From contig VMGD01000007.1 of the NCBI GenBank assembly GCA_007376405.1, positions 1-53,156 on the forward strand: DNA of 53,156 nt, written 5' to 3'. The notes under the pieces are model-generated. The model searched no databases, was not told the origin of the DNA, and saw only the letters and a list, made by a program, of their open reading frames with translations. The position numbers and the translations under genes were made by a program. Below are positions 40,738 to 48,648 of this stretch, piece by piece (position 1 is the first letter of the stretch; every line of letters begins with the position of its first letter). This stretch comes from Microgenomates group bacterium Gr01-1014_7. GTDB taxonomy: Bacteria; Patescibacteriota; Microgenomatia; Daviesbacterales; UBA10151.

Positions 40738-41100
40738 CTATTTTACTTTCCTATAAATGGAATTAAAAATCAAGTTTAATTCTTTAGCTTCTGTCCATAA
40801 AGTTCTAGCTTCTTCGGTCATGCTGGGAACAGCAATTGCCATCATTCTTAGAAAATGTTTTGCTTCACGGGCTTCTTTCTTACAGATACCAATTTTGTGT
40901 TTAAAGTCGAGTTTACTCTCAGCGTCATCGGCCTCAGAGTAGTTTGCTCCCACACTAGTACCACACTTGACTAGTTGATTAATCAGAGGATGTGTTAGTG
41001 GACCTATGGGAATTTTCTGACAAAACTTGATAATTGCTTCCCCAAATTTTGCAGTCCTTTCTTCAAGATCAAATTTTTTGGTACTTGTATCATTAGACAT
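40738..41100 (-). CDS. four-helix-bundle protein (23S rRNA intervening-sequence family)
   Basis: 120 residues that fit the S23/four-helix-bundle family: RTAKFGEAIIKFCQKIP, LINQLVKCGTSVGANYSEAD, FKHKIGICKKEAREAKHFLRMM. Members were first found inside 23S rRNA intervening sequences, but most, as here, are encoded elsewhere. The GANY.EA segment and the ..KEA.E...WL-like segment are the conserved parts. The role is not known. It lies behind tyrS on the same strand, separated by a 9-bp tandem repeat, in an AT-rich region. Confidence 0.85.
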   Translation of the reverse strand: MSNDTSTKKFDLEERTAKFGEAIIKFCQKIPIGPLTHPLINQLVKCGTSVGANYSEADDAESKLDFKHKIGICKKEAREAKHFLRMMAIAVPSMTEEARTLWTEAKELNLIFNSIYRKVK

Positions 41101-41110
41101 TATTTAGAAA

Positions 41111-41137
41111 TTAGGTTAATTAGGTTAATTAGGTTAA
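41111..41137. repeat. 9-bp tandem repeat at the end of tyrS
   Basis: Three perfect copies of TTAGGTTAA, followed by a diverged fourth. The tyrS stop codon (TTA on the plus strand, 41129-41131) is part of the third copy, so the last residues of TyrRS (KLTKLT) lie at or in the repeat. Confidence 0.8.
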
Positions 41138-42232
41138 TTTTGTTAACTTCTCTATTTCCTCCAAAGCCTTCCTTCTTTTTGGATCTTCAAAATAACGGCG
41201 TGCTGGTTCTAGTTTTTTAATTAACCATTCTGCCACAGCAGTTTTTAAATCCATGGGGTGCAATTTTTTGCTGGCATAATCTTTTTGCAATTCATTGAAT
41301 GAATTGTAAGTTACATTTCCCCCATGTTCCGGTTTTCTGGAAACTTGTAAAGTTCCGTTCTCTTCATAAAATACTAGATTTTTTGTCCAATCCAAAATTG
41401 GATTAAATGCTATTTCTCCTTCCGGGCAAAAAGCATTATTAACTTTTCTTTTGATTTCATCAGGATAATCATGAATAAAAACAGCAGAATCCGGTTTGGA
41501 TTTGCTCATTTTGGCTGCCTCAATATCTAAAACTTTTTTACCACTCTCATCTGTTGTGAAAACCGGTTGAAGTAATCCCAGGAGTAGATGATGATGAATA
41601 GCCACCGGTTTTCGCTCACCCAAATCCTGCGCAGATTCTCTTGCAACAACATGGACATTTCTCTGGTCAGTTCCGGCGTGGGCTATATTTGCCCCCAATG
41701 CAAAAATGTCGGCAGACTGCATAGCCGGATAAATAAGCATGGCAGTATCGGAGATTTCCGACTCTTTCCGCCCCATTATCGTTGTGGATCTGATCATCCT
41801 TGCTAAAGTTGTTGCTTTGGCAACTCTAACAACGTTAGCCCAATAGTCATTGCCCAGTTTTTCATAAAGGTCGCTGCCCAATACGAAATTAATCTTGTCC
41901 GGGTTCGCACCGGCACATAATGCTGCCGCTTTAAGAGCTTTTTCAAAGTATTCTCTTGCCAGCCTTTTTGCTGTTTCCAGCGTCCCATCGAGTTTTTTAT
42001 TAAGCCAGGTATGCCAGTCAGCAAGGAGAATTTGGATTTCAACTCCTGCGTCTTGTAGATCCTTAATTTTCTGCATGGTATAAACCCAGCCCATGTGACC
42101 TTTTCCTGAAATTTCAAAGCCAATGTAGTGGCGGAGTGGAATTCCTGAGTTGATCAAACTCTTTAACTCTTCCTCCGTTAAAACCTCTTCCAGATTTCTG
42201 GTAATTAAATTAAACTTTTCCTCATTTGTCAT
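41129..42232 (-). CDS. tyrS: tyrosyl-tRNA synthetase, archaeal/eukaryal type
   Basis: 367 residues. Similar throughout to archaeal TyrRS: YIGFEISGKGHMG (HIGH region), LLADWHTWLN, IYPAMQSADIFALGANIAHAGTDQRNVHVVARE, KMSKSKPDSAVFIHD (KMSKS) and NSFNELQKDYASKKLHPMDLKTAVAEWLIKKLEP. The bacterial C-terminal S4-like domain is absent. It charges tRNA-Tyr. The HIGH region reads GKGHMGWVYTM, whereas a broken copy at 44347 has the more usual GKVHLGTGLATM. The start is leaderless: TATAAT ends 6 nt before the ATG. It is divergent from an ABC transporter. Confidence 0.92.
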   Translation of the reverse strand: MTNEEKFNLITRNLEEVLTEEELKSLINSGIPLRHYIGFEISGKGHMGWVYTMQKIKDLQDAGVEIQILLADWHTWLNKKLDGTLETAKRLAREYFEKALKAAALCAGANPDKINFVLGSDLYEKLGNDYWANVVRVAKATTLARMIRSTTIMGRKESEISDTAMLIYPAMQSADIFALGANIAHAGTDQRNVHVVARESAQDLGERKPVAIHHHLLLGLLQPVFTTDESGKKVLDIEAAKMSKSKPDSAVFIHDYPDEIKRKVNNAFCPEGEIAFNPILDWTKNLVFYEENGTLQVSRKPEHGGNVTYNSFNELQKDYASKKLHPMDLKTAVAEWLIKKLEPARRYFEDPKRRKALEEIEKLTKLT

Positions 42233-42238
42233 AGTTCG

Positions 42239-42267
42239 ATTATATATTATCGTGCTAAAATAACCAA
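42239..42267 (-). promoter_or_regulatory. tyrS promoter
   Basis: Minus strand TTGGTT (42267-42262), a 17-nt spacer and TATAAT (42244-42239), 6 nt before the tyrS ATG. It overlaps the divergent ABC promoter completely, so only one should be occupied at a time. Confidence 0.6.
42253..42261 (+). promoter_or_regulatory. extended -10 of the ABC transporter gene
   Basis: TGCTAAAAT, ending 7 nt before the ATG at 42269. A diverged copy of this promoter and start (ATG now ATA) is found near 45010-45035. Confidence 0.5.
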
Positions 42268-42268
42268 T

Positions 42269-44089
42269 ATGTTTAAGTTTTTAAATGAGAAAAAAATGGA
42301 GAGGGTTAAGACTACCATTGTGACTTCATGGAGGTTGCTGGGTCTGCTTTGGAGTATTGATAAGTGGTTGCTTTTGGGGAATATGGCGGCGGTTTCCGTG
42401 CCGGCGGTTGTTCCTCTTTTGATTGGTTATATTTTTAAACTACTTATTGATCAGGTGGTATTAATTACTTCTGGAAAGCCCGCGGATAATCATTTGATAA
42501 TTCTGATAGTGGTTGCAGGATTTAGTACTTATGTTTTGCAAAGTTTGGCATTCTCCGCCCAGGACTACCTTGTCAGGTTAATCTATACAAAAGTTCCTGT
42601 TTCCTTATATAACATGATTTTACTGAAGGTTTCCAGTCTGGATATGGCTTATTTTGAAGATAGTGAATTTAAATCCACTCTGGAAAAGGCCAGGGATTCA
42701 TATACCTTCAGACCTTTAAATATGATGGATAATTTGCTTTTTACTTTTCAGGGGTTAATACAAATGATTGCGTCTTTGGCAGTTTTGGCATCCCTTAATT
42801 TGTTTTTAATTTTGCTGGTGATTTTGGTGGCTGTGCCGGAATTTCTAAACCGGGCCAGGCAATCCCAGCTTGCCTGGGGTATTTGGGATGCTAATTCCCC
42901 TTTCAGGAAAAAATTCTGGTATGTATCTTGGCTACTTCAAGAAAGAGATGCCATTAAAGAAATGAAGCTTTTTGCTCTTCCGCACCATTTTTTAGCAGAG
43001 CTTAAAGGTTTGCATGAGAAGTTTTATCAGGATAATAAAAAACTGGCTACCAAATATTTCGGCATTAATACTTTGTTTAATTTACTTGAAGGCTTTGCTT
43101 TTATTGGCATCCTTATATACATAATTTTTGAAACTATTGCCAAAAGATTAACTATTGGAGATATTAGCTACTATACTTCAGCAGCCACTAATTTCCAGAA
43201 TGCCATTGGTGGACTCTTTAGAAATGTGGTTAAACTTTTTGAGGGAAGCCTTTATATTGGTTCTATTTTTGAGGTTTTGGATGCCCAGCCTAAAATCAAG
43301 CAGATTGCAAATCCGGTCCGGTTAAATCTTAAGGGTCCACCGTTTATTGGATTTAAAAATGTTACCTTTTCATATCCGGGTACAAAGATTAAAGTACTGA
43401 AAAATTTTGATCTGACAATCAAACCGGGAGAAAAGATAGCGCTGGTTGGAGAAAACGGGTCAGGTAAAACTACCATCATTAAGCTTTTATGCAGGTTTTA
43501 TGATGTTTTGGAGGGAGAGATTTTAATTAACGGAAAAAATATTAAGGATTTAGATTTGAATGAGTGGTACAAAGCAGTCGGAGTTTTATTTCAGGATTTT
43601 GTTAAGTATGAATATAGCGCCAAGCAGAATATATTTTTCGGAAAGGTTTATGAAAAGATGAGCTTAGGAAAGATTATTGAGGCGGCAATATCTTCTGGTG
43701 CAGACCCAATGATTAGAAAATTGGAAAAAGGGTATGAACAAATGCTGGGCAGGACTTTTGAGGGTGGAGTGGAGCTTTCGGTCGGTCAGTGGCAGAAACT
43801 GGCCTTAGCCAGAGGGTTTTTTAGAAATGCCCCTATCTTGATTTTAGATGAGCCAACCGCCGCAATTGATGCTAAAGCCGAGGCGGAAATTTTTAATCGG
43901 GTTGAAAGGTTATCTAAGGATAAAACCGTAATTATTATTTCTCATCGATTTTCCACAGTCAGGAATGCGGACAAAATTTACGTGATTGAAAAGGGAAAAA
44001 TTATAGAATCGGGTTCTCATGAGCAGTTGATAGATTTAAACGGCCAATATGCCACACTTTTTAAACTTCAAGCCAAAGGCTACCGGTAA
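42269..44089 (+). CDS. ABC transporter, fused permease and ATPase (exporter half)
   Basis: 606 residues. The N-terminal permease has about six membrane helices (NMAAVSVPAVVPLLIGYIFKL and following). The C-terminal ATPase has Walker A LVGENGSGKTTIIKLL, a Q-loop (VLFQDFVKYEYSAKQNI), the signature ELSVGQWQKLALARGF (LSVGQ for LSGGQ), Walker B APILILDEPTAAID and a switch His (IIISHRFSTV). It is an exporter half-transporter that would dimerise; lipid, peptide or drug are possible cargoes and the sequence does not say which. The last 10 codons (LFKLQAKGYR) recur at 45432-45465 as the remnant of a lost second copy. Confidence 0.92.
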   Translation: MFKFLNEKKMERVKTTIVTSWRLLGLLWSIDKWLLLGNMAAVSVPAVVPLLIGYIFKLLIDQVVLITSGKPADNHLIILIVVAGFSTYVLQSLAFSAQDYLVRLIYTKVPVSLYNMILLKVSSLDMAYFEDSEFKSTLEKARDSYTFRPLNMMDNLLFTFQGLIQMIASLAVLASLNLFLILLVILVAVPEFLNRARQSQLAWGIWDANSPFRKKFWYVSWLLQERDAIKEMKLFALPHHFLAELKGLHEKFYQDNKKLATKYFGINTLFNLLEGFAFIGILIYIIFETIAKRLTIGDISYYTSAATNFQNAIGGLFRNVVKLFEGSLYIGSIFEVLDAQPKIKQIANPVRLNLKGPPFIGFKNVTFSYPGTKIKVLKNFDLTIKPGEKIALVGENGSGKTTIIKLLCRFYDVLEGEILINGKNIKDLDLNEWYKAVGVLFQDFVKYEYSAKQNIFFGKVYEKMSLGKIIEAAISSGADPMIRKLEKGYEQMLGRTFEGGVELSVGQWQKLALARGFFRNAPILILDEPTAAIDAKAEAEIFNRVERLSKDKTVIIISHRFSTVRNADKIYVIEKGKIIESGSHEQLIDLNGQYATLFKLQAKGYR

Positions 44090-44092
44090 ATT

Positions 44093-44347
44093 TCAAATTT
44101 TAGCTTCTGTTTGTGGTAATATATCAAGCTGGATGGCTAATATTACAAAATTAACACAGGCTTCCTGAAGATTTTTTATTATCCGCATGGTGGCAAGGCC
44201 GGTTCCCAGATGCACTTTCCCGGAAATCTCAAAGCCAATATAATGCTTTAAAGGAGTTCCTGATTCAATCAGCTGTTTTAGTTCTTGTTCAGTTAAAACT
44301 TCCTCCAAATTCCTGGTAATTAAATTAAATTTATCATCGCTGGTCAT
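44093..44347 (-). pseudogene. tyrS N-terminal fragment 2
   Basis: From the ATG at 44347, about 62 residues follow TyrRS closely (MTSDDKFNLITRNLEEVL, then YIGFEISGKVHLGTGLATM). They then break off near 44163 into the antisense of a second truncated gene start. HIGH is more canonical than in the intact tyrS, so this fragment comes from a different tyrS paralogue, not from a recent copy. TATAAT still lies 6 nt upstream. No KMSKS half, so it cannot charge tRNA. Confidence 0.8.
44133..44168 (+). pseudogene. truncated start of the 45506 membrane-protein gene
   Basis: ATG followed by ANITKLTQA, identical to the first ten residues of the gene at 45506, then TCC TGA. The sequence before it, with the end of the ABC gene and TGGTAATAT, also matches 45430-45505. 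It is the left scar of a tandem duplication and deletion. Confidence 0.75.
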
Positions 44348-44354
44348 GGATTGA

Positions 44355-44726
44355 TTATACAATATTGTCCTTTGCAAAGGACAGGAATTTTCGGAGTAAA
44401 TTCTCTAAGGAATCGGATTTGCTAATTTGAAAAGAAGGAGAATTGACATTCTCGTATTGCTTAGAATGAAAATGTAAAGGAAATGTAGAAACTTTAGACC
44501 ATTTTTTATCCGGGGTATTATCCAAACGGTAAATTAAATTATCAATATGATTTCTCTCCCAATGAATGGAGAAGCGAAGTTTTGAAACTGTTGTCGTGTA
44601 GAAAAAGTCAATAAAGCTTTTATCCGTAAGGTAAATACGTAGTTTATGTCCTAAATCTTGTGTTGATAAGACTATACCCGAAAATTCAACTTCGGCAATT
44701 CTAGCAAATCTTGTAAATTTTGCCAT
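44355..44726 (-). CDS. putative toxin, TumE/DUF6516-like
   Basis: 123 residues. The order LRIYLTDKSFIDFFYTTTVSKLRFSIHWERN, then IYRLDNTPDKKWSKVSTFPLHFH, resembles the DUF6516 (TumE) toxin family, whose members carry a hydrophilic His/Lys-rich segment after a TDGS(F)L-like strand. It overlaps the upstream small gene by 55 nt in another frame, a layout typical of toxin-antitoxin pairs. The ATG at 44726 is the only good start that keeps the N-terminal strand. Assignment by memory of the family; toxicity is inferred. Located between two tyrS fragments. Confidence 0.5.
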   Translation of the reverse strand: MAKFTRFARIAEVEFSGIVLSTQDLGHKLRIYLTDKSFIDFFYTTTVSKLRFSIHWERNHIDNLIYRLDNTPDKKWSKVSTFPLHFHSKQYENVNSPSFQISKSDSLENLLRKFLSFAKDNIV

Positions 44727-44974
44727 AGGTTGGCCTTTTTAAGTTTTAATTTGCGAAGTTCCTTTTCTATTTTTGTTTTCTCGGATAGCAAGTGATCAAA
44801 CAGGAAAAAATCCTCCCCCACAGTTTCCTCGGATAATTTTCCTTTATAAAGTAATTTATCCAGGTCATCAGTGGTTTTGACTCCATACCTTGACGTAAGG
44901 CGGAATAGTTCGGCTTCAATAAGACGATGTTTTTCAATTAAGATAATAGCTTTAGCTTTGTTTTGTTCACTCAT
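44672..44974 (-). CDS. putative antitoxin partner
   Basis: 100 residues, all helical and highly charged (EKHRLIEAELFRLTSRYGV, LSEKTKIEKELRKLKLKKANL), ending in LLELPKLNFRV. It probably forms a coiled coil and binds the downstream protein, with which it overlaps by 55 nt. It has its own extended -10 (TGTTATAAT) 8 nt before the ATG. Its ATG also overlaps the stop of the tyrS fragment-3 frame as ATGA. No DNA-binding motif is obvious. Confidence 0.5.
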   Translation of the reverse strand: MSEQNKAKAIILIEKHRLIEAELFRLTSRYGVKTTDDLDKLLYKGKLSEETVGEDFFLFDHLLSEKTKIEKELRKLKLKKANLWQNLQDLLELPKLNFRV

Positions 44975-44982
44975 ATGAAAAG

Positions 44983-44991
44983 ATTATAACA
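44983..44991 (-). promoter_or_regulatory. extended -10 of the putative toxin-antitoxin pair
   Basis: Minus strand TGTTATAAT, with the -10 at 44988-44983, 8 nt before the antitoxin ATG. It is a perfect extended -10 without a visible -35. Confidence 0.5.
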
Positions 44992-45007
44992 TATTATGAT
45001 AGATAGC

Positions 45008-45035
45008 ATTGTGCTAAGATTACCAATATATTTAA
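45008..45035 (+). pseudogene. ghost of an ABC-gene promoter and start
   Basis: GTGCTAAGATTACCAATATA plus TTTAAG differs at only a few positions from 42252-42279, where the ABC gene starts, with ATG changed to ATA. It is joined to tyrS fragment 3 in inverted orientation at a short shared sequence (CTTAAA...ATATTGG on the minus strand). Confidence 0.6.
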
Positions 45036-45128
45036 GCGGAGTCCCTGAATCAATCAGCTGTTTTAATTCTACCTCTGTTAAAACCTCCTCCAAATTTCGC
45101 TTTATTAAATTAAACTTTTCTTCATTGG

Positions 45129-45386
45129 TCATTTATTTTTTTGGCTTTCTTCCCAAATGATAGCTCTTCTTCTATCAGCATCAGATATTTGAGGAAACGT
45201 GAGGCCAGATTTTCCAGCTCTAGCTTCTCTAATGAATGGATTATCAGTGCTAAAGCTGGGAATAGATCTCGTGTTATCGCCTGAAGCATATTGAAGATCA
45301 CGAAGCCAACCAGAACAAGCTTCTGAACCAAATGCTACAGCCAAGCTTACTGCTAAACATAAACCTAATTCAAATCTTCTATCCAT
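45129..45386 (-). CDS. small secreted protein, unrecognised
   Basis: 85 residues. The N-terminus has a basic start and a hydrophobic stretch ending in small residues (FELGLCLAVSLAVAFGSEA), a likely signal peptide. The mature part is polar (SGDNTRSIPSFSTDNP, DADRRRAIIWEESQKNK). A TAGAAT lies 6 nt before the ATG, so transcription would be leaderless. Its stop overlaps the tyrS fragment-3 ATG. It sits inside the rearranged region and may have come in with it. No homologue comes to mind. Confidence 0.5.
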   Translation of the reverse strand: MDRRFELGLCLAVSLAVAFGSEACSGWLRDLQYASGDNTRSIPSFSTDNPFIREARAGKSGLTFPQISDADRRRAIIWEESQKNK

Positions 45387-45505
45387 GAACTGATTCTATA
45401 TTAATTAGTAAAATTTGACAATACACCCTCCTTTTTAAACTTCAGGCTAAAGGTTACCGGTAAATTTCAATTTTGAGCCTTTATTTGTGGTAATATAGGG
45501 CTCAA
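45387..45505. other. gene-free gap with ABC-gene 3' remnant and two promoters
   Basis: 45432-45465 on the plus strand still reads LFKLQAKGYR-stop, the exact C-terminus of the ABC transporter, with only synonymous changes (CAA/CAG, GCC/GCT, GGC/GGT). The -10 of the 45129-45386 gene (minus, 45393-45398) and TGGTAATAT of the next gene (45488-45496) fill the rest. Confidence 0.7.
45488..45496 (+). promoter_or_regulatory. extended -10 of the 45506 gene
   Basis: TGGTAATAT, ending 9 nt before the ATG at 45506. The same box survives in the duplicate at 44112-44121. Confidence 0.4.
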
Positions 45506-47074
45506 ATGGCTAATATTACAAAATTAACGCAGGCTTTGGTGGCAGGATACGATAAGGTCTACTCTACTTCCGATGATAAAACAATCTCGGTCAATCCTTT
45601 AGTGGCAGAGCTTGCTAGCTGGTATGAAAAGTTTCGCACAGCCATGGATTACCGGGCTGATGAGGTGTTACTCCGTTCTGCAATAGAGCGGATTTTAAAG
45701 AGAAGATTGCTTTTAAGCAGCAGTGGTGAAGTCATTGCCGCCCCTTTAATTAGAGAACTTGTCTGGGCCCGCTATTTTCCGGATTCCTCAGTTCCCGAAT
45801 CAAAAGTTGTCAGGGTGGCTCAAACTATTGATCTTTTTTTGCTGCTGGAGAAAAAAATTAATCAAAAGCACAGGATAAATACCGGTTTGGTAAATGAATG
45901 GATCATAGATCTTTTATCCTCTGAAATTGAAGATATTTTAAAACCTGGCAATGAAGCGGATTTGATGTCCAATTTTATCTATCAGCTTTTCAGAGGTAAA
46001 GTTACAATCAGTGATGATTCGGAAGAAACCAGGGATATACAGGTTTACATTGCCGTAAGAAGAGCTTATGCCAATGATGATCTGGCCCTCTTACGCTATC
46101 GCCTTTTTAAACAATATTTTGGTAAACTAACTGTTCATAATTTGGAAAAAGTATCGGAAGATTTTGCCGGGGCAAAAAGAAAACTGGAAGAACAGCTCAA
46201 GTTTCCGGCCAGAGATAAAATTTATACTTACATAAAAAATCAGACCATCCCCTTTTCAATTTTGGATGATGTTTTCAGAAAACATCAGGGGAATGTTTCA
46301 ATCTTAGTAGGCGATGAGGATCAGCTTAATCTGGAAATCTTAAATGCCTGCGCGAGCAGATATAAAACTATCAGAGCCAAGGTTAACAGAGCAATTGTAA
46401 GAAGCGTTATTTTTATATTTTTTACCAAAGCGGCCTTTGCGCTATTTATAGAAGGGACTTTTGAAAGATTAATTTATGGGCAGGTTATTATTTCTTCATT
46501 ACTGATTAATACTTTATCCCCGGTAATTTTAATGATAATAGTCGGGGTTTTAATTAAAACTCCGGGCAGGGATAATTCTTTCCGGATTCAAAAAAAGATT
46601 AATACTATTTTATTTGATGACCCTCCCATACTGGATAAGGATTTGATCCTCAGGCGCAGACCAAGCAAAATTGACCCCTTACTTTGGGGTATGTTTATGT
46701 TGCTTTGGCTGGCTACTTTTGCCCTTTCGTTTGGAGGAATTGTCTTTATTTTAAGCAAATTGCGGGTTAATCCTCTTTCCCAGGGAGTATTTATATTCTT
46801 TTTGGCAATAGTTTCTTTTGTGTCATACAGGATAAACAGGACAGCGCATATGTATATCTTAAAGGACCGCAGAGAGAATTTGGGTTCTTTGATTTTTGAC
46901 TTTTTCTTTATGCCTTTTATACAAGTGGGAAGAAAACTGACACAGGCAGTTTCTCAAATAAATATAGTGCTTTTTATATTTGATTTTATTATTGAAACCC
47001 CATTTAAAGGAATTGTGGCCTTTTTTGAACAGTGGCTATTATTCCTGCGGACCCAAAGAGAAAAACTGGATTGA
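45506..47074 (+). CDS. large membrane protein of unknown function, upstream of the ATP synthase operon
   Basis: 522 residues. A soluble helical N-terminal region (about 1-290; YEKFRTAMDYRADEVLLRSAIERILKRRLLL) is followed by about four membrane segments: SVIFIFFTKAAFALFI, ISSLLINTLSPVILMIIVGVLI, LLWGMFMLLWLATFALSFGGIVFIL and GVFIFFLAIVSFVSY. The C-terminal tail has further hydrophobic segments (INIVLFIFDFII). No enzyme motif. It was probably part of a duplicated unit with tyrS and the ABC gene, since its first codons survive at 44133. The stop codon overlaps the -35 box of the atp promoter. Confidence 0.7.
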   Translation: MANITKLTQALVAGYDKVYSTSDDKTISVNPLVAELASWYEKFRTAMDYRADEVLLRSAIERILKRRLLLSSSGEVIAAPLIRELVWARYFPDSSVPESKVVRVAQTIDLFLLLEKKINQKHRINTGLVNEWIIDLLSSEIEDILKPGNEADLMSNFIYQLFRGKVTISDDSEETRDIQVYIAVRRAYANDDLALLRYRLFKQYFGKLTVHNLEKVSEDFAGAKRKLEEQLKFPARDKIYTYIKNQTIPFSILDDVFRKHQGNVSILVGDEDQLNLEILNACASRYKTIRAKVNRAIVRSVIFIFFTKAAFALFIEGTFERLIYGQVIISSLLINTLSPVILMIIVGVLIKTPGRDNSFRIQKKINTILFDDPPILDKDLILRRRPSKIDPLLWGMFMLLWLATFALSFGGIVFILSKLRVNPLSQGVFIFFLAIVSFVSYRINRTAHMYILKDRRENLGSLIFDFFFMPFIQVGRKLTQAVSQINIVLFIFDFIIETPFKGIVAFFEQWLLFLRTQREKLD

Positions 47075-47107: not shown

Positions 47108-48044
<937 letters not shown>

Positions 48045-48053
48045 CGTTCTTAC

Positions 48054-48146
48054 GTCATCCTGAGCGATTAGCGAAGGATCTCCCGATTTATTCGGGACTC
48101 CACTCGCATTCGCGAGAGATCCTTCGGGCTCCGCCCTCAGGATGAC
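48054..48146. repeat. 93-nt multi-branched palindromic element between atpE and atpF
   Basis: Outer stem GTCATCCTGAG (48054-48064) with CTCAGGATGAC (48136-48146), 11 bp; inner stem CGAAGGATCT (48072-48081) with AGATCCTTCG (48117-48126), 10 bp; between them two small hairpins, CCCGA-TTTAT-TCGGG (48083-48097) and CTCGC-ATTC-GCGAG. The fold resembles a cloverleaf. The last bases contain the first ATG of the atpF frame. Confidence 0.8.
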
Positions 48147-48648
48147 AAAAAATATGAACTTTTTGTCAGACTTTGGTTTAAACCCGGTGCTTTTGGCCGC
48201 GCAAGTGGTCAATTTTTTAATACTTCTTTGGATTCTTAATAAGTTTCTTTACAAGCCAATTTTAAAAATTTTAGCTGAAAGAAGAAAAAAAGTTGAGGAT
48301 AGTTTAGAGCATGCGGAAGAAGCTGAAAAAAAATTACTTGAAGCTACAGAGGAGGCACAAAATTTAATTGCCAAAGCTGCTGTGGAAGGCCAAAAAATTG
48401 TGGACGGCGCAACCAAAGCCGGTTTGCAGATAAAGGATGAAATTGTGCAAAAAGCGAATGAGGCTGCGGCAGTGGTGTACAAAAAGAATGAAGAGGCAGT
48501 GAGGTTAAGGGAAGAAAGAATGATGAATGAAGTGAGAGCCGCAGCAGCAGATTTGGTAACAGTGGTTATCCAAAAATTAACCGGAAAAGTCATTACTAAG
48601 GATGACCAAAAGAGCATGATAGAAAAAGAAGTTAGGAATTTATCGTGA
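48142..48648 (+). CDS. atpF: ATP synthase F0 subunit b
   Basis: 168 residues. An N-terminal membrane helix (PVLLAAQVVNFLILLWILNKFL) is followed by a long charged coiled coil (RRKKVEDSLEHAEEAEKKLLEATEEA) that forms the peripheral stalk. The first ATG (48142) is made by the end of the palindromic element; the ATG at 48154 is equally possible and would lie outside it. There is no good ribosome-binding site before either, so translation may depend on the element. The stop overlaps the atpH GTG start. Confidence 0.92.
   Translation: MTKNMNFLSDFGLNPVLLAAQVVNFLILLWILNKFLYKPILKILAERRKKVEDSLEHAEEAEKKLLEATEEAQNLIAKAAVEGQKIVDGATKAGLQIKDEIVQKANEAAAVVYKKNEEAVRLREERMMNEVRAAAADLVTVVIQKLTGKVITKDDQKSMIEKEVRNLS

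Follow-up and report, generated by a model that had tools for sequence, protein, structure and literature searches.

How did an uncultured member of the Daviesbacteria come to keep broken pieces of its essential tyrosyl-tRNA synthetase gene tyrS, of an ABC exporter gene, and of a membrane protein gene (“mem”) side by side with intact versions of the same three genes? The contig with this locus, which is called “the window” here and comprises all 53,156 nucleotides analyzed, belongs to a 1.09-Mb genome in an assembly of 26 contigs with an estimated contamination of 0.18%, and the near relatives of this genome are other Daviesbacteria. From left to right, the locus contains tyrS on the minus strand, the ABC gene on the plus strand, the first 10 codons of a second mem, a tyrS stub in minus orientation, a toxin gene and its neighbor (both minus), an ABC promoter with the start of the gene, a further minus-strand tyrS stub, an 85-amino-acid (aa) open reading frame (ORF) on the minus strand, an ABC tail plus promoter, mem, and the ATP synthase operon.

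The intact tyrS (“tyrS1,” 41129 to 42232, minus strand) encodes an archaea/eukarya-type TyrRS (NCBIfam NF006330, 1.7e-127), assigned to type A from its motif GHMGWV and the tree. Divergently oriented is the intact ABC exporter gene (“ABC1,” 42269 to 44089, plus strand; Pfam ABC_tran, 2.3e-30), the closest relative of which, with 64%, is found in genome G019 and does not adjoin tyrS there. On the other side of the scar, mem (45506 to 47074, plus strand) is the leader of the ATP synthase operon and encodes a 522-aa membrane protein without a match to a Pfam family. Its relatives in Daviesbacteria and Levybacteria share 43 to 71%, and the protein is a conserved one in both groups. Sequence comparison showed that the promoter region of mem (45464 to 45505, plus strand) is repeated at 44090 to 44132.

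All pieces that the original prediction had named in between were present, far above chance: two tyrS 5' stubs, 10 codons of a mem start, an ABC promoter with start, and an ABC tail. The mem ghost (“mem1,” MANITKLTQA, 44133 to 44163, plus strand), which ends layer 1, agrees with 45506 to 45536 in 30 of 31 bases, versus 35 to 71% for the mem starts of relatives. The ghost of the ABC promoter and start (“ABC2,” 45008 to 45036, plus strand) agrees from 45011 to 45036 with 42252 to 42277 in 23 of 26 bases, and 100 shuffles yielded no chance match to either ghost. The ABC tail (“ABC3,” 45419 to 45463, plus strand) is 88% identical to ABC1 in its last 34 nucleotides (nt); including the mem promoter, 45419 to 45497 and 44045 to 44123 are 84% identical across 79 nt, and the ABC tails of relatives are 53 to 91% identical to ABC1 or the ghost. 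The first tyrS stub (“stub 2,” 44160 to 44347, minus strand, left limit at about 44160) is open in frame for 62 codons, and the other (“stub 3,” 45031 to 45132, minus strand) has 34 to 38 codons and was recovered with an E value of 1.2e-14 in a search of the genome. Base composition gave no distinctive signal along the scar.

At 44160 to 44163, mem1 (..CAGGCTT) runs into the reversed tyrS sequence of stub 2 (GCTTCCTG..), with GCTT common to both. At 45024 to 45036, the ABC2 start (CCAATATGTTTAAG) runs into reversed tyrS codons 39 to 33 (in relatives CCAATATARTGTTT..), and the junction with stub 3 is inside CCAATAT(A)..TTTAAG. Both right junctions are located at short shared sequences, and the adjoining 3' parts of tyrS are missing. 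An end at microhomology (GCTT; CCAATAT..TTTAAG) combined with loss of adjacent recipient DNA is the pattern expected at one end of a homology-facilitated illegitimate recombination. The ABC2 start had been read as an ATG changed to ATA. The origin of this base is ambiguous because CCAATAT(A)..TTTAAG is found in the ABC start and, closely similar, in reversed tyrS codons 33 to 39 (LKHYIG), so that this spot is the junction itself and the change may stem from the tyrS side. The view that all these pieces derive from ruined tyrS-ABC-mem units and were joined where short stretches of sequence are shared was upheld.

A long-lived, functional second ABC copy had also been deduced, from the last 10 ABC codons. 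Their three differences are indeed all synonymous transitions, but the four preceding codons do not match as protein (QYTL versus QYAT). By our own count, about one-third of the transitions in the 10 codons are synonymous, and three of three would occur by chance with about 4%, which is weak evidence. Since these three differences are synonymous, the mem ghost differs in 1 of 31 bases, and the spacer between both has many differences, the ABC and mem copies probably evolved apart under selection, with their breakage being recent. Selection before breakage looks supported, but this does not require that both copies resided within one cell, because divergence under selection fits copies in different cells equally well.

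Where the intact gene contains GHMGWVYTMQ, stub 2 contains VHLGTGLATM; tyrS1 was the 35th of 41 tyrS genes when these were ranked by identity to stub 2, and a clade of tyrS1 and stub 2 was rejected (AU P = 0.011, 63 columns). Stub 2 (type B, VHLGTG) is a different kind of tyrS from the intact gene (type A, GHMGWV). An assignment of stub 3 to a type failed because its 34 codons fall in the conserved 5' end of the gene, which carries no type signal. Dating of the stubs by novel residues was also discarded, as the differences were not significant: stub 3 has two (T11K and E21V), stub 2 has one, and intact genes have between 0 and 5.

A second tyrS or a stub was absent from all 44 other Daviesbacteria genomes searched. 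Each of the 42 genomes with a match had exactly one, compared to three in the window genome, and tyrS was not found in the remaining two, which are incomplete. All relatives compared are outside the genus, with a mem identity of 71% at most. In many of them, tyrS is arranged head to head with mem, in others with the ABC gene, and in a few it is located beside atpB without either, and these neighbors were unchanged whatever the tyrS type. The three main types, A (GWV), B (VHLG), and C (LHxG), are scattered over the family. Across 40 genomes, the type changed 22 times on the rpoB tree, versus 17 to 25 times with shuffled labels, a count that includes a fourth, mixed class; on a mem tree of 24 genomes, there were 11 changes (shuffles, 8 to 15), and there were 2 on a tyrS tree for the 24-genome subset, from which the motif columns had been taken out. 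Correlation with rpoB distances gave a rho of 0.82 for mem and of 0.30 for tyrS, with mem often only about 40 bp away from tyrS, and near-kin pairs such as G064/G057 and G061/G067 possess unlike types. Because the tyrS type is scattered on both trees and mem follows rpoB, tyrS has been replaced in place and the neighboring mem has not. The possibility that both travel together was ruled out by the type changes on the mem tree and by the difference between the two correlations. All tyrS forms may be functional TyrRS, the family match being that of the window protein only.

The replaced unit may be smaller than the gene. Identity within types exceeded that between types only in codons 41 to 290 or thereabouts; the type signal rose in a sharp step at codon 41, from 0.01 to 0.30, and faded around codon 290. 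Codons 2 to 40 correlated with the core with a rho of 0.05, whereas 300 core column sets of like variability gave 0.59 to 0.89. This fits crossing-over events inside the conserved 5' end (TPLKHYIGFEISGK), near the position at which stub 3 ends. Erasure of the 5'-end signal by repeated substitution instead of crossing-over retains some probability, and it agrees with the observation that the 5' end hardly follows rpoB at all. The idea that the conserved ends are vertically inherited host parts was abandoned: their agreement with rpoB is no better than that of the core, and for this reason only a break in linkage is claimed. Tentatively, and with slightly more doubt than trust, tyrS may be regarded as an exchangeable-cassette locus, in which the catalytic core (codons ~41 to 290) is swapped between conserved ends at a rate high enough to erase the host phylogeny, probably under selection at the active site, for instance by TyrRS-directed inhibitors, and of which this genome keeps a layered record of displaced versions.

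With respect to the scar itself, we consider it reasonably likely that it is the fossil record of successive tyrS replacements by versions coming from related cells. The tyrS genes of Daviesbacteria are exchanged between species by recombination, usually with both ends clean, but at this site two or more segments with tyrS, ABC, and in part mem would have come in and joined homologously on the left side and illegitimately on the right. The left ends may have recombined by homology in or beyond tyrS. On the right, codon 10 of an incoming mem1 would have been joined in one event to codon 62 of the resident tyrS at GCTT, and in the other event the start of an incoming ABC2 to codon ~34 to 38 of the resident tyrS at CCAATAT..TTTAAG. 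Each event would bring in a new tyrS-ABC head and reduce the previous tyrS to a 5' stub. Since the new head would be installed leftward each time, the layers should become older from left to right, and the intact tyrS would be the newest one. Later, the toxin gene and its neighbor would have been inserted between ATTGT repeats into the stub-2/ABC2 promoter, and the body of ABC3 would have been lost around the orphan ORF. Such a single event per layer would explain the direction and content of each junction, a rightward gene start followed by a reversed tyrS 5' stub, and frequent in-place replacement of tyrS in the family would account for displaced remnants of different kinds.

The type of stub 2, the single-copy state of tyrS in relatives, its incongruence with rpoB and mem, and the sequences shared at the right junctions argue for this displacement. 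We infer homologous left ends, the order of events, donors from the same genus, and the uptake route. Uptake of DNA is plausible because a ComEC-family competence protein is present in the genome (E value of 1.8e-47). It counts against displacement that the order with ABC immediately before mem is known from this genome alone, where both layers have it, and that a donor would thus have to belong to the same narrow lineage. From the similarity of mem1 and mem, donor and recipient must have been closely related. The displacement route rests on one locus, since no other such scar or intermediate was seen among the relatives.

The original prediction had instead assumed an ancestral tandem array. 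In this main surviving alternative, tyrS-ABC-mem units would have been duplicated in place, the array would have collapsed by deletions between short repeats, and the core of tyrS1 would have been exchanged for type A afterwards. Three partial units in head-to-tail order, an identity between units of 97% in the mem start and 84% in the ABC tail-promoter region, and junctions at short shared sequences are all accommodated by such an array, and the 30 of 31 identical bases of mem1 would also be expected from a recent duplication in place. Copies in an array should be mutual nearest relatives, however, which tyrS1 and stub 2 are not; the mem and ABC pieces offer too few positions for a full test. 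The different types of tyrS1 and stub 2, in a family with frequent in-place replacement of tyrS, speak against duplication in place. So does the finding that none of the 44 other family genomes, all outside the genus, contains an array, a stub, or an additional tyrS, an outcome that the proposal itself had named as counting against it. The array also needs duplications, at least two deletions, and a core exchange, compared with a single event for each layer in the case of displacement. Overall, in-place duplication with later core exchange appears rather unlikely, although it deserves to be kept in mind.

The scar contains two further components that had not been listed before: a TumE-family toxin gene with a codirectional ORF, between stub 2 and the ABC2 start, and the orphan ORF between stub 3 and the ABC3 tail. 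The toxin gene (44355 to 44726, minus strand) matches Pfam PF20126 (2e-12) with 47.4 bits versus a cutoff of 23.4, whereas the NCBIfam TumE equivalog reached 17.7 bits, under its cutoff of 90, and none of the 44 other family genomes has the gene. The 100-aa ORF upstream of and overlapping it (44672 to 44974, minus strand) is presumed to be its partner by position only; as a candidate antitoxin, it had no match in Pfam, NCBIfam, or PADLOC. The toxin segment interrupts a promoter, of which 44348 to 44369 remains at stub 2 (aligning with 42233 to 42255) and which otherwise aligns without gaps to the intact tyrS-ABC promoter; ATTGT is present on both sides (44364 to 44368 and 45008 to 45012), and the last codons of the toxin gene consist of stub-2 promoter sequence. 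The orphan 85-aa ORF (45129 to 45386, minus strand) could be assigned to none of the families in Pfam, NCBIfam, and PADLOC and had one weak match, inside a longer frame, in 280 other genomes of the class. It has a hydrophobic N terminus, and its stop codon and the ATG of stub 3 overlap (ATGA), which gives the impression of a former operon with the ORF ahead of this tyrS.

A mobile element carrying the toxin gene could have rearranged the locus, with the tyrS, ABC, and mem pieces as by-products of insertion and partial excision. The toxin gene between ATTGT repeats inside the scar and the occurrence of Y1 transposase-like genes in the tyrS-atp region of several relatives are in agreement with this, but a transposase, an integrase, or terminal inverted repeats were not seen in the scar, and such an element would not bring a tyrS of another type, which makes this explanation improbable. 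These genes, resembling Y1/IS200-like transposases (HIYNRGVEKR..MPNHFHLL), exist in at least six relatives, in the mem-atpB gap (L118, L121, L124, and L127) or the ABC-tyrS gap (L093 and L099), and one was confirmed as Pfam Y1_Tnp. Least probable of all is a wrong joining of contigs from related strains, which the 26-contig assembly and the resemblance of the pieces to homologous loci of different strains might suggest, but the junctions share only 4 to about 15 bases, under the usual assembly word lengths, the contamination estimate is 0.18%, and the toxin gene and orphan ORF sit within the scar.

Archaea/eukarya-type TyrRSs have been described in CPR bacteria (PMC5370408), and the Daviesbacteria enzyme, by the NF006330 match of the window protein, is of this kind; as far as the consulted parts of that study go, it used a few representatives per group after confirming within-group similarity and does not mention several types or their exchange. 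Two TyrRS forms in Bacteria are known as homeoalleles of aminoacyl-tRNA synthetases (aaRS) (Andam and Gogarten, discussed in PMC3191353), and replacement by recombination in flanking regions has been proposed there. The Daviesbacteria tyrS genes are likewise divergent forms of one synthetase, patchily distributed in conflict with the reference tree, with one form per genome and a common syntenic context. Unlike the homeoalleles described there, they are exchanged within one small family, so frequently that types are distributed at random over the rpoB tree; an internal core (codons ~41 to 290) appears to form the exchanged unit; and one genome retains physical stubs of displaced versions. Sequential displacement has been described for the type VI secretion system (T6SS) effector-immunity modules of Vibrio cholerae (Kirchberger et al. 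2017, PMC5361080), where incoming modules are also anchored by homology on one side and illegitimately joined on the other, pushing older remnants downstream in layers. The leftovers there are intact and probably useful immunity genes, while those found here come from a housekeeping gene and are broken stubs. For both systems, the mechanism is a proposal.

Synthetase genes often serve as markers of descent. If the displacement reading is true, a synthetase gene with a random distribution relative to rpoB inside one family, with intragenic breakpoints, and with physical leftovers of displaced copies would show how replacement happens, and it would suggest frequent exchange of DNA among reduced, uncultured bacteria. 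Selection for TyrRS variety and the rate of one-sided recombination in CPR bacteria would become testable questions.

A few other features of the region were recorded. Several relatives (L122, L124, L129, L133, and L169) have a palindrome, TGTGGTAATATTACCACA, upstream of mem, between this gene and tyrS, which is possibly an operator over the −10 box; at 45487 to 45497 and 44113 to 44123 of the window, only its left half (TTTGTGGTAATATA) is kept. Downstream of tyrS, at 40738 to 41100, is a gene for a 23S rRNA intervening-sequence protein (PF05635), which is also a neighbor in L085, L087, and L116. In the ATP synthase operon, an imperfect long inverted repeat (GTCATCCTGAG..CTCAGGATGAC, 48045 to 48150) between the ORFs at 47841 to 48044 and 48142 to 48648 looks like a REP-type element.
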